The notes below the pieces were generated by a model. That model saw only the letters and a program-made list of their open reading frames with translations. It made no database searches and was not told where the DNA came from. A DNA stretch of 64,000 nt from Burkholderia pyrrocinia (GTDB lineage Bacteria > Pseudomonadota > Gammaproteobacteria > Burkholderiales > Burkholderiaceae), in assembly GCF_022809715.1 (NCBI RefSeq), contig NZ_CP094459.1, positions 930,001 through 994,000 on the forward strand, read 5' to 3'. A program made the position numbers and the translations under genes. Position 1 is the first letter of the stretch. The number at the start of each line of letters is the position of its first letter. Shown one piece after another: positions 12,421 to 59,137 of this stretch.

Positions 12421-13977
12421 TCAGAGTCCGATCTCCTGCCAGAGCCGGTCGACGCGCGCCTTCACGGCCGCGTCCATCTCGATCGGACGGCCCCATTCCC
12501 GGTTCGTCTCGCCGGGCCACTTGTTGGTCGCGTCGAGCCCCATCTTCGAGCCGAGGCCGGCAACCGGCGACGCGAAATCGAGATAGTCGATCGGCGTGCT
12601 GTCGACCATCACCGTGTCGCGCACGGGGTCGACGCGCGTCGTGATCGCCCAGATCACTTCCTTCCAGTCGCGGATGTTCACGTCCTCGTCGACGACCACG
12701 ATGAACTTCGTATACATGAACTGCCGCAGGAAGCTCCACACGCCGAACATCACGCGCTTCGCGTGGCCCGCGTAGCTCTTCCTCATCTGGACGATGGCCA
12801 TCCGGTAGCTGCAGCCTTCGGGCGGCAGGTAGAAGTCGGTGATCTCCGTGAACTGCTTCTGCAGCAGCGGCACGAATACCTCGTTGAGCGCGACGCCGAG
12901 CACCGCGGGCTCGTCGGGCGGTTTGCCCGTGTAGGTCGAGTGGTAGATCGCGTCGCGGCGCATCGTGATGCGCTCGACGGTGAACACCGGAAACCACTCC
13001 TGCTCGTTGTAATAGCCGGTGTGGTCGCCGTACGGCCCTTCGAGCGCATGTTCGTACGCGGCGGACGCGTTGCCGGCCGGCCGCGGTGGTGCGCCGGCCG
13101 GAGCGGGGGCAGGGGTGCCGTCCTGCGGATGGATGAAGCCTTCGAGCACGATCTCCGCGCGCGCGGGCACCTGCAGCGTGTCGACGCCGGGCGTCAGGCA
13201 CTTGGCGAGCTCGGTGCGGCTGCCGCGCAGCAGGCCGGCGAACTGATATTCGGACAGCGAATCGGGCACGGGCGTCACCGCGCCGAGCGTCGTGGCCGGA
13301 TCGGCGCCGAGCACGACCGCGACCGGATACGGCTTGCCGGGGTTCTGCAGCGCGAATTCGCGGAAGTCGAGCGCACCGCCGCGATGCGCGAGCCAGCGCA
13401 TGATCAGCTTGTTGCGGCCGATCAGCTGCTGGCGGTAGATGCCGAGGTTCTGGCGCGACTTGTTCGGACCGCGCGTGACCGTCAGGCCCCACGTGACGAG
13501 CGGCCCCGCGTCGCCGGGCCAGCAGGTCTGGATCGGCAGCTTGTGCAGGTCGACGTCGGCGCCTTCCCAGACGATCTCCTGGCACGGCGGCGACGACACC
13601 GACTTCGGCGCCATGTCCCACACGGCCTTCGCGAGCGACAGCAGCTTGCCGGCGTCCTTCAGGCTCTTCGGCGGGTCGGGCTCCTTCAGCGCGGACAGCA
13701 GGCGCCCGAGATCGCGCAGCGAGCCGAGCGCGGCGTCGTCGCCCGCATCGACGCCCATCCCGAGTGCGACGCGGCGCGGCGTGCCGAACAGGTTGCCGAG
13801 CACGGGAAACGCATAACCGGGCGGCGCGTTGAACAGCAGCGCAGGGCCGCCGGCGCGCAGCACGCGATCGCACAGCTCGGTCATTTCGAGCACGGGCGAC
13901 ACGGGTTGCGTGACGCGTCGCAGTTCGCCGAGCGCCTCGAGGCGCTGGATGAAATCGCGTAAGTCTTTGTATTTCAT
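12421..13977 (-). CDS. ubiD: UbiD, 4-hydroxy-3-polyprenylbenzoate decarboxylase
   Basis: A 518-residue prenylated-FMN-dependent decarboxylase of ubiquinone synthesis. It follows E. coli UbiD closely: a start [20 protein letters not shown], then [20 protein letters not shown], then [13 protein letters not shown], and a late [20 protein letters not shown]. Residues about 282-312 are an Ala/Pro-rich insert absent from E. coli UbiD. The needed UbiX flavin prenyltransferase is not in this window. ATG 13977 fits the family N-terminus. Confidence 0.94.
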
Positions 13978-14191
13978 GAAGAAGGTCCGGGCCGCCCGCA
14001 TGGCGGGCGACGGTGGGCGGGCGCAGCGGCCGGCTGCGGCCCCGAATCGACCGACGATTTTACCCGGCCTGCCGCATGGACGCCCGGCCGCGAAAAAAGT
14101 CGATCGCGCGCAAACCCTCTACGGCACGGGGCTCCCGATCTGAAGGGCGGCTTTAAATTACTTTTTGTTATGATTTTGAGATTTTATAGTG

Positions 14192-14219
14192 TTGACGATC
14201 TATAAAACCCTGCTAGAAT
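14192..14219 (+). promoter_or_regulatory. Sigma-70 promoter
   Basis: TTGACG at 14192-14197 and TAGAAT at 14214-14219 are 16 bp apart, in a clearly AT-rich stretch (about 14145-14220) rare in this genome. Start of transcription is expected near 14226. It feeds a folded RNA with its own terminator, and then the transglycosylase gene. Confidence 0.75.
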
Positions 14220-14225
14220 CCGCTC

Positions 14226-14365
14226 ACATTGGTTGCAGGGTAAAAGGCTTCGAGCCGCCAATCACCGATCTTTGACGCAGCGCGTCACCGTCCGCCGAAC
14301 CCTGCACGGCGTATTCGACGGTCTTAGTCGTAGTCCCAGCCAGCGCTACCAGACGCTGGTTTTTT
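14226..14365 (+). ncRNA. Candidate structured small RNA or attenuated leader
   Basis: About 140 nt lie between a strong promoter and a factor-independent terminator without a convincing ORF. A long-range stem TGCAGGGT (14234-14241) with ACCCTGCA (14299-14306) encloses two small hairpins: GGCT/AGCC (14246-14256) and TGACGC/GCGTCA (14273-14287). The last element is the terminator at 14340-14365. The fold is a three-way junction plus terminator, as in riboswitches, attenuators or sRNAs. I do not recognise a known class; it is not tRNA, 4.5S, 6S or tmRNA. The downstream gene starts 207 bp after the terminator. Confidence 0.6.
14340..14365 (+). terminator. Rho-independent terminator in the leader of the transglycosylase gene
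   Basis: CCAGCG (14340-14345) pairs with CGCTGG (14354-14359) over an 8-nt loop and is followed by six T. It lies about 140 nt after the promoter at 14192 and 207 bp before the next start codon, so it either ends a separate sRNA or attenuates the downstream gene. Confidence 0.8.
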
Positions 14366-14399
14366 GCGTGGGTGCCACCGCGTATGCCCGTCTCGCCCA

Positions 14400-14455
14400 G
14401 TGTGCGAAGGCGTCGGCCTTCTTACACCGTGGCCTCGAACGGTACTTATACCGTT
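14400..14455 (+). other. Two further hairpins in the transglycosylase leader
   Basis: GAAGGC (14406-14411) faces GCCTTC (14416-14421) over a GTCG loop, with an outer GTGT/ACAC clamp (14400-14403 and 14424-14427). AACGGTA (14438-14444) faces TACCGTT (14449-14455) over a 4-nt loop. Both are upstream of the start codon at 14573 and after the leader terminator. Confidence 0.55.
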
Positions 14456-14572
14456 TCCCCGATGCTTGCACGTCCCAACCAAGGCGTGCGGCGTCGTGAT
14501 TCCGCGGCGCGTTTCTGTCTCGCCATCGAGCTGAGCGAGCCGCACGAGTCATGTTCATGGGAGATGATCTGA

Positions 14573-15685
14573 ATGAACGCTTGGTTATCGTGGCGTCCCA
14601 CTGAGCAGCATGCGCAAATCGTGCGCAACATGCTGCGTCGCGGGACGCGTGTCAGTCACCATCTATTCAGCGTTGTCGGCTGTCTCGCTGTCGCGGTTGC
14701 GCTTGCACTGTGGCTGCTGCCGACCGTACGCGGCACGCTTGCCGCGAAGCTGATGCCGGTCGTATCCGCGGCCGTGCAGGCCGGGCCTGCCCGTTTGCTG
14801 TCCGGCCATCCGCTGCCGAACTTCGCGCCTGCCGGCGCGCAGCCGCAGCAGGAAGAGAGTCCCGAAACGGACGCACTTGCGGTCGGCCTCGATGTCGCAC
14901 CGGAAGCCGCCGCGCAGGGCGATGCGTCCGATCCGGCCCGCAACGGCCCGTCGCCCGTCGCGCTCGCGAAACTGATCCCGACCCAGCGGGTGCCGGCCGA
15001 CGCGCGCGACGATCGTGCGCTCGCGTCGAACCGCGAACAGGCGCTCGTCGCGACCTATCTGTCGCGCCGTTACCGTATCGCTCAGGAGCCGCTCGGCCAG
15101 CTGGTCAAGGCCGCGTTCCAGACCGGCCGTGACGTCGGCCTCGATCCGCTGCTGCTGCTGTCCGTGATGGCGATCGAGTCGGGCTTCAACCCTTACGCCG
15201 AAAGCGGCGTCGGCGCGAAGGGCCTGATGCAGGTCATGTCGAAGGTCCATTCCGACAAGTTCGAGTATTTCGGCGGCACCGATACCGCACTGCAGCCGCT
15301 CGCGAACCTCCAGGTCGGCGCGCTCGTGCTGAAGGACTGCATCGCCCGCGGCGGCTCGCTCGCGAACGGCCTGCGGCTGTACAACGGCTCGACGAACCCC
15401 GACGACAACGCATACGGCGCGAAGGTGATGGCCGAGCGCGGCCGGCTGCGCGACGTGTCGCATGGCCGCAGCGTGCCGGTCAATGCACCGCAGGCGCCGG
15501 CGAAGCCGATCGTCACGGCCGCTGCCGTAACGGCATCGGCAGGCGGCGCGAAGCGCGTGCATGCGACGCTCGAAGCCGCGACGTCGACGAAGACGACGGC
15601 GTCGAAGGAAGCGTCGCCGCAGAACGACGCGAGCGTCGATACCGTGAAGCAGTCGCACGGCGACCATTCGGAACTCGGCGCGTAA
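14573..15685 (+). CDS. Membrane-anchored lytic transglycosylase (SLT domain)
   Basis: A 370-residue protein with one N-terminal membrane helix (about residues 30-52), a low-complexity Ala/Pro linker, and a lysozyme-like SLT domain at about 165-300. The catalytic Glu is in SVMAIESGFNPYAES, followed by the family motif GAKGLMQVM and a late RLYNGST. It cleaves peptidoglycan glycan strands to anhydro-muropeptides. The Ser/Thr/Ala-rich tail beyond residue ~300 looks disordered. The leader is 350 nt long and heavily structured. Confidence 0.87.
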   Translation: MNAWLSWRPTEQHAQIVRNMLRRGTRVSHHLFSVVGCLAVAVALALWLLPTVRGTLAAKLMPVVSAAVQAGPARLLSGHPLPNFAPAGAQPQQEESPETDALAVGLDVAPEAAAQGDASDPARNGPSPVALAKLIPTQRVPADARDDRALASNREQALVATYLSRRYRIAQEPLGQLVKAAFQTGRDVGLDPLLLLSVMAIESGFNPYAESGVGAKGLMQVMSKVHSDKFEYFGGTDTALQPLANLQVGALVLKDCIARGGSLANGLRLYNGSTNPDDNAYGAKVMAERGRLRDVSHGRSVPVNAPQAPAKPIVTAAAVTASAGGAKRVHATLEAATSTKTTASKEASPQNDASVDTVKQSHGDHSELGA

Positions 15686-45273: not shown

Positions 45274-45795
<522 letters not shown>

Positions 45796-59049: not shown

Positions 59050-59137
59050 TGGCGGAAGCGGTGAGATTCGAACTCACGGACAGTTTCCCGTCGCTGGTTT
59101 TCAAGACCAGTGCCTTAAACCGCTCGGCCACGCTTCC
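59050..59137 (-). tRNA. tRNA-Ser (anticodon TGA)
   Basis: A complete class II tRNA on the minus strand: acceptor GGAAGCG (59137-59131) with CGCTTCC (59060-59054), anticodon TGA at 59103-59101 reading UCA, long variable arm, T-loop GTTCGAATC, encoded CCA (59052-59050). Confidence 0.97.

Follow-up and report, generated by a model that had tools for sequence, protein, structure and literature searches.

A probable structured RNA leader of a lytic transglycosylase gene in Burkholderia and close genera

The DNA ahead of a lytic transglycosylase gene of Burkholderia pyrrocinia appears to encode, on the + strand, a genuine RNA that is structured and does not code for protein. It lies in a window of 64,000 nucleotides (contig NZ_CP094459.1, positions 930,001 to 994,000, of a 7.69 Mb genome in three contigs), and all positions are counted from the first letter of this window. 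Nucleotides 14226–14572, transcribed from a sigma-70 promoter, would make up the 5′ mRNA leader of the transglycosylase gene, a single structured RNA of ~347 nt acting in cis. The first ~135 nt are proposed to fold as a loop-strand pseudoknot of helices P1 and P3 together with a hairpin P2; the terminator T directly after it would end many transcripts as an RNA of ~135–140 nt, and transcripts passing T would carry the hairpins HA, HB, HC, and HD and then the gene. The autolysin would in this way be kept scarce, with read-through under some condition. We consider such cis attenuation at T with a structured read-through to be slightly on the probable side. Comparison of homologous sequences supports a conserved secondary structure in both domains, the linkage to the gene, and, as far as T and the half downstream of it are concerned, the + strand. 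The initial annotation of this DNA had left the choice between an sRNA and a riboswitch or attenuator; a non-coding structured RNA on the + strand could be retained from it, with a cis-acting leader or attenuator as the best option, and the fold it had drawn and the assignment to an undescribed class had to be given up.

The promoter which had been claimed as TTGACG-16-TAGAAT is present, with the −35 hexamer at 14192–14197, a 16-nt spacer, and the −10 hexamer at 14214–14219 preceded by TG. A consensus scan of 13500–15500 yielded it as the only sigma-70-like site of the region (one found, 0.2 expected). Transcription is predicted to start at about 14226. The block upstream of the −35 hexamer (Table 1) is possibly an activator site or an UP element.

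For the 5′ part of the leader a three-way junction with an 8-bp closing stem and two internal hairpins had been drawn. The complementarity behind the closing stem, UGCAGGGU (14234–14241) with ACCCUGCA (14299–14306), is present and its inner pairs are mostly kept in relatives (14235–14239 in 126–133 of 140 sequences, 14240 in 77 of 131, 14234 in 95 of 140, and 14241 in 48 of 92), but its 3′ strand is the loop of the better supported hairpin P3. This loop comprises nine nucleotides (14298–14306, AACCCUGCA), and the CCCUGC contained in it pairs with the 5′ GCAGGG. With the strands in the order a-b-a′-b′, P1 and P3 would either alternate or, if present at the same time, form a loop-strand pseudoknot. 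One of the two internal hairpins, AGGCUUCGAGCC (14245–14257), is not conserved, as its two strands pair equally well when they are taken from different homologues (z +1.6), and the single-sequence fold energy gave no sign of unusual stability (z −0.97, equalled by 35 of 200 shuffles). The three-way junction as drawn was rejected on account of this hairpin and of the clash between P3 and a nested P1. From the homologues, 14234–14241 and the loop of P3 are read as a pseudoknot with compensatory changes.

Compensatory changes, a check the initial annotation had proposed, were found both by a pairing test and by pair counts and support the structure. On alignment A1, which holds 41 sequences including the window, six of the eight P1 pairs have both-side changes and 72.4% of the P1 cells are paired; the pair 14237–14303 is A-U in 26 sequences and G-C in six. 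Over the 5′ domain 65 double-change cells were counted as compared to 28.5 in shuffled alignments, none of 500 shuffles reaching this value, and 21–44 in slid controls, and the share of paired cells was 79.8%, as compared to 75.9% after shuffling and 44.3% or less in slid controls. Weak results came from two coarser measures, the 13 pairs with any double change (reached by 32 of 500 shuffles; 10–18 in slid controls) and the 45 further pair types (reached by 55 of 500). An alternative pairing of 14258–14273 with 14282–14293, which may represent half of a switch, would compete with outer P3 and covaries weakly (t −4.0 and −3.3). By eye, the consensus fold of genus g10 adopts this pairing, but it is broken in the window.

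Likewise present is the claimed six-T terminator, a hairpin at 14339–14360 followed by T at 14360–14365. A scan of 13500–15500 listed three terminator-like sites, two of which are the T hairpin, with 1.2 ± 1.2 expected. The longest T-run at T has a length of at least four in 124 of 139 sequences and at least five in 107 of 139, and just two to three in the other 15. T presumably terminates transcription in vivo and read-through at T is presumably regulated, with envelope stress as a guess at the signal. As no conserved helix competing with T was found in a scan of 3359 window pairs, no antiterminator is visible, nor was the mutually exclusive pairing of antiterminator and terminator seen by which a transcriptional riboswitch is recognized; besides T itself one window pair of the scan touches T (14238–14249 with 14358–14369, t −3.2).

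An end of the structured unit at 14365 proved to be too narrow: conservation continues past T into a second covarying domain of ~185 nt, with structure up to ~14550. In separate folds of three clades HA, HC, and HD appeared in all and HB in two, its place being taken by a longer hairpin in g25. On alignment A2, 22 of 31 tested pairs of the second domain have changes on both sides, a figure reached by 11 of 500 shuffles, and the number of pair types was reached by 41 of 500. The 125 double-change cells compare with 61.5 in shuffled alignments (reached by none of 500) and with at most 57 in slid controls, against which the A2 pairs are favoured by having been read off single rows of A2. By eye, many relatives have a short T-run after the hairpin HB, and the stretch 14439–14456 could therefore be a second, weak terminator.

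The last hairpin, HD, ends 8 nt upstream of the ribosome-binding site. Occlusion of this site beyond chance was not observed: it was unpaired to 0.276 in native and 0.280 in shuffled leaders, its accessibility was lower than in shuffled leaders in 17 of 35 sequences, and pairing of the anti-Shine-Dalgarno type gave z −0.3 in the pairing test, so that the sequestration expected of a translational riboswitch did not exceed chance. Sequestration by the CCCC before HC, a candidate from the consensus folds, was dropped for lack of covariation and because of the negative accessibility test. The statement that none of the leader is coding held as far as tested, since the open frames are crossed in the alignments, by eye, by length changes which are not multiples of three. 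A conserved upstream reading frame or leader peptide in the frames 14233–14499 and 14372–14572 was rejected on these grounds, indels crossing both, and a short frame that opens with AUG near 14551 because its frame and length vary among relatives (both by eye).

Table 1. Positions of the leader features and neighbouring genes in the window
Feature	Position	Strand	Evidence
ubiD, divergent upstream neighbour	12421–14001	−	PF01977 and PRK10922
Upstream block ATTACTTTTTGTTAT ... TATAGTG, partly conserved	14157–14191	+	conserved columns, 43 non-redundant sequences
Promoter, extended −10 TG-C-TAGAAT	14192–14219	+	consensus scan; both hexamers nearly invariant in relatives
P1 5′ strand, partner 14299–14306 in the P3 loop (predicted pseudoknot)	14234–14241	+	pairing test z −4.5
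P2, hairpin GACGC/GCGUC	14274–14286	+	paired in 128–140 of 140, nearly invariant; z −1.8, little covariation
P3, two-part hairpin 14287–14292/14317–14322 and 14293–14297/14307–14311	14287–14322	+	consensus folds, pair counts; z −7.6
T, hairpin 14339–14345/14354–14360 and U-run 14360–14365	14339–14365	+	pairing test z −5.2
HA, long-range stem 14370–14378/14429–14435, with a bulge in the window, around a variable insert	14370–14435	+	z −8.8; both-side changes in 9 of 9 pairs
HB, hairpin ACGGU/ACCGU	14439–14454	+	two of three clade folds; z −2.5, near background
HC, hairpin 14461–14465/14491–14495 and 14468–14472/14485–14489	14461–14495	+	z −6.3; both-side changes in 6 of 8 pairs
HD, hairpin 14498–14508/14539–14550	14498–14550	+	z −10.9; both-side changes in 5 of 10 pairs
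Shine-Dalgarno GGGAG of the transglycosylase gene	14559–14563	+	sequence; conserved in relatives
Lytic transglycosylase gene, SLT domain, 370 aa, presumed regulated gene	14573–15685	+	PF01464, 6e-15

In the pairing test, duplex energies of strands from one species were compared with those of strands exchanged between species, using 35 non-redundant of 139 sequences including the window. Its z values, from which the relatedness of the sequences is not fully removed, can be set beside 27 random region pairs, which gave 0.16 ± 1.27 with a lowest value of −2.2. The helix scan started from 3403 window pairs, 44 of which gave no duplex and were removed, and 42 of the 3359 that were left had t < −3. 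Thirty-three of these fall on the helices of Table 1 and three on a local hairpin (14383–14392/14404–14413) which was named after the scan; the other six consist of two at the HC and HD margins, two at 14258–14273/14282–14293, one touching the U-run of T, and one isolated pair. The tails comprised 33 pairs below −3.5 and nine above +3.5. Column-wise G-tests for covariation with a parsimony-based phylogenetic null yielded a best pair of E 0.07 in the 5′ part, a P3 pair, a best E of 0.22 in the second domain with the top pairs off the helices, and best E values of 6.3 and 16 in two clade sets. This test was judged to be underpowered on sequence-only alignments, and the structural support therefore rests on the pairing test, the helix scan, and the pair counts on A1 and A2. 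For the consensus folds and pair counts 16 of 157 records were dropped (four from g8, three from g16, and nine from g11), leaving 140 unique sequences; the records L001 and L005 are one locus, the window's own. Nine records were dropped for the analysis of conserved columns, and g8, g16, and the locus L105 were also dropped for the second-domain alignment and the clade folds. Three of the four g8 and all three g16 records were put back for A1, A2, and R1 (a model built here for the 5′ domain on the + strand), with L105 left out, so that Mycetohabitans and Pararobbsia are contained in A1 and absent from the consensus folds and pair counts.

A cmscan of the window matched the Rfam family RF02422 (Bp1_738) at 14158–14366 on the minus strand with 228.7 bits, the gathering cut-off being 45 bits, over model positions 1–208 of 208. 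The same scan gave tRNA genes at 45274–45361 (+) and 59053–59137 (−). An Rfam scan had been proposed along with the view that the RNA belongs to no known class, and a hit had been named as the result that would speak against this view; owing to the RF02422 match and to a 5′-UTR sRNA published from B. thailandensis, the word undescribed was wrong. The DNA files under RF02422, but the minus-strand sRNA claim of this family is not adopted here. The Rfam description names Bp1_Cand738_SIPHT of B. pseudomallei, which is recorded as a 209-nt, RT-PCR-positive, Burkholderia-specific RNA from the minus strand of chromosome 1 (PMC3521395). RF02422 covers the identical 209 bp of DNA at full length, but its model comprises the promoter and the 5′ domain only and ends at the terminator, whereas the structure in the window runs on to ~14550; its structure line lacks the P1 pairing found here, and it is filed on the opposite strand as a Burkholderia-specific sRNA, in contrast to a + strand leader in more than one genus. 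The family appears to have been modelled on the antisense strand, with the promoter included as RNA.

The RNA from B. thailandensis, BTH_s13, was described as an expressed region of 283 nt within the 5′ UTR of BTH_I1527, an SLT gene; it is conserved, adjoins a SIPHT prediction, and lies in a divergent intergenic region (PMC4035088). It increased more than 3-fold with an antibiotic mixture, its signal was ~10-fold over that of the gene in three conditions, and in intracellular bacteria the leader dropped ~4-fold and the gene rose. The authors thought it to be co-transcribed with the gene, favoured processing or degradation, and mentioned a riboswitch as a possibility (PMC4035088). By gene layout, not by sequence identity, BTH_s13 is probably the same locus as the leader in the window: both precede a lytic transglycosylase gene of the SLT type in a divergent intergenic region. 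In the portion of PMC4035088 at hand BTH_s13 is neither linked to RF02422 nor given a structure or a terminator model. Among the matches listed in the open-access literature PMC4035088 and PMC3521395 are the only papers treating the locus; the main texts of PMC5688073 and PMC4603805, as far as they could be searched, contain neither the word transglycosylase nor a mention of the locus, and it is likewise not mentioned in the accessible portion of PMC5719362. That the locus exists and is transcribed in relatives had been published before. Judged by the same listed matches, and by the parts accessible, what is apparently new is the pseudoknot, the assignment to the + strand in place of that of Rfam, the second domain, and the occurrence outside Burkholderia.

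Matches to RF02422 were found in 64 of 65 genomes of the genus and, at E ≤ 0.01, in 175 of 299 genomes of the family, where they extend to 13 of 25 genera, several of them weakly. Each matching genome has one matching place, the next match in the window's own genome having E 0.2. With the model R1, matches at E ≤ 0.001 were obtained in 62 of 150 genomes of the family, in the genera g1, g8, g10, g13, g16, g20, and g25, which all contributed to R1 itself; g17 matched weakly, and the single g11 match is at another place. In the genomes compared by eye, R1 and RF02422 mark the same place on opposite strands (e.g., in the genomes G000, G021, G079, and G134). Genera with the leader include Caballeronia (g10), Paraburkholderia (g20), Trinickia (g25), Mycetohabitans (g8), and Pararobbsia (g16), and g13 includes a record named Trinickia mobilis. 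The transglycosylase gene follows directly downstream in 156 of 157 records, equal to 155 of 156 distinct loci with L105 as the exception, and UbiD was found upstream in 145 of 157, with ~300 nt upstream covered for most. From the start of the element to the ATG 390–446 nt were measured in 17 loci outside g11. Named records with the promoter pattern (67 of at most 8 kb each) contained both genes in 64 cases, UbiD only in two, and the transglycosylase only in one. Outside the family, among 399 genomes from the rest of the order, R1 gave weak matches in 13 (E 1e-4 to 0.01), about four being expected if the rough E values of R1 hold. One locus was inspected for each of these 13 genomes, one of which had a second match. 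The transglycosylase was absent from all of them at a limit of E < 0.1, and UbiD lay close by in one; for lack of a transglycosylase, these matches are probably chance. One such weak match (L233, ~2082–2202), ~1.3 kb from a UbiD gene, is probably chance as well.

As to the strand, wobble pairs turn into A-C on the other strand, and their counts for plus and minus were 41:13 in T, 56:16 in HC, 40:19 in HD, and 29:15 in HB, but not decisive in P1 (21:14), P2 (6:15), P3 (23:22), and HA (25:22). Duplex energy favours the + strand in HC (29 of 35 sequences) and HD (28 of 35) and leans slightly towards minus in P1 (22 of 35), P2 (18), P3 (24), and HB (21). Because of the wobble bias, the promoter, and the U-run we take + to be the functional strand; for the part covered by RF02422 the argument would rest on promoter, terminator, and T and not on P1–P3. 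A minus-strand sRNA, as filed by Rfam and in the B. pseudomallei paper, could claim the high RF02422 score and the slightly more stable minus-strand duplexes of P1–P3. Such an RNA would have to start with the A-run of the terminator and to traverse the promoter of the other strand, the predicted promoter and terminator both being on +, and the cDNA for the RT-PCR had been primed with oligo(dT), a strand test not being described in the part of the source at hand (PMC3521395). With the wobble pairs of T, HC, and HD also against it, this reading is highly improbable.

For a + strand RNA, action in cis is favoured by a leader which sits at a fixed place in a single copy, hardly varies in length, and is structured as far as the ribosome-binding site, and the T-runs of at least four in most relatives make termination at T the simplest device for a scarce enzyme. 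The leader-to-gene ratios reported for BTH_s13 fit termination at T; in the available part of PMC4035088 no RNA of ~138 nt from circular RACE is reported, which suits processing better than clean termination. In the processing or decay element which the B. thailandensis authors had in mind there would be one transcript, and cleavage of the leader instead of termination would set the mRNA level. The heterogeneous RACE products of 209–400 nt, some of them reaching more than 100 nt into the gene, and the Northern fragments (PMC4035088) speak for this, as does a second structured domain beyond T, but processing does not need the mostly conserved hairpin and U-run of T, and we regard it as unlikely. 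A trans-acting sRNA of ~140 nt ending at T and pairing with other mRNAs, with a separate mRNA supply for the gene, would explain why promoter-like and terminator-like sites of its own are present and could use 14323–14337, a stretch between P3 and T which is unpaired in the consensus fold and has a partly conserved GUUGUCC core; CopraRNA listed 43 candidate targets for BTH_s13 (PMC4035088). This is unlikely in view of the nearly invariable linkage to the same gene, of a conserved structure running on through the gene leader, which a terminated sRNA does not require, and of the consensus scan of 13500–15500, which offers the gene no second promoter-like site. A riboswitch, with the P1–P3 pseudoknot or the second domain as aptamer for a cell-wall or envelope metabolite, had been raised by the BTH_s13 authors (PMC4035088) and is in line with a conserved, pseudoknotted and covarying domain before a terminator in the leader of a single gene and with the rival pairing of outer P3. 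As this pairing is broken in the window, few unpaired positions of the 5′ domain are invariant, and neither a conserved antiterminator nor sequestration of the ribosome site was found, it is quite unlikely. The five readings are not mutually exclusive, a ligand switch being partly a special case of cis attenuation.

Cis attenuation at T would place the locus beside riboswitches and other attenuating leaders, with which it shares a structured domain followed by a terminator in the 5′ UTR of one gene; it differs from them by the missing antiterminator pairing and by a second large structured domain past T. The sucA RNA (RF01070), a structured leader of Burkholderiales thought to be a riboswitch (PMC4603805), is likewise lineage-limited; the Rfam scan gave no match to it in the window. 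A further-reaching proposal, which we regard as unlikely, is a two-domain riboregulator of cell-wall lysis, in which a pseudoknotted 5′ sensor would set read-through and the second domain would act on translation or decay in response to an envelope or peptidoglycan signal. If true, this would be a new cis-regulatory RNA class confined to Burkholderia and close genera. Lytic transglycosylases must be rationed, and to our knowledge control of such an enzyme at the RNA level has rarely been described. A defined covarying leader makes this testable with regard to the pairs to be broken, the place at which 3′ ends should be sought, and the condition releasing the gene. The comparison also suggests that the RF02422 model has the wrong strand and too small an extent, which would mislead strand-specific annotation of this locus, 142 of the 299 family genomes scoring over its cut-off.

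The nine g11 loci (L132, L133, L135, L137, and L153–L157) keep the promoter before the transglycosylase gene and have a different leader, with a strong hairpin of its own and then a T-rich stretch. This leader is either unrelated or fully diverged at the same place, and g11 was left out of the structure counts. The segment 14157–14224, consisting of promoter, spacer, and the block ~35 nt upstream, is among the most conserved DNA of the locus, and it is retained even in g11, where the leader RNA is replaced. As this conservation exceeds the apparent need of a sigma-70 promoter and is kept with a replaced leader, the segment possibly holds a regulator site.
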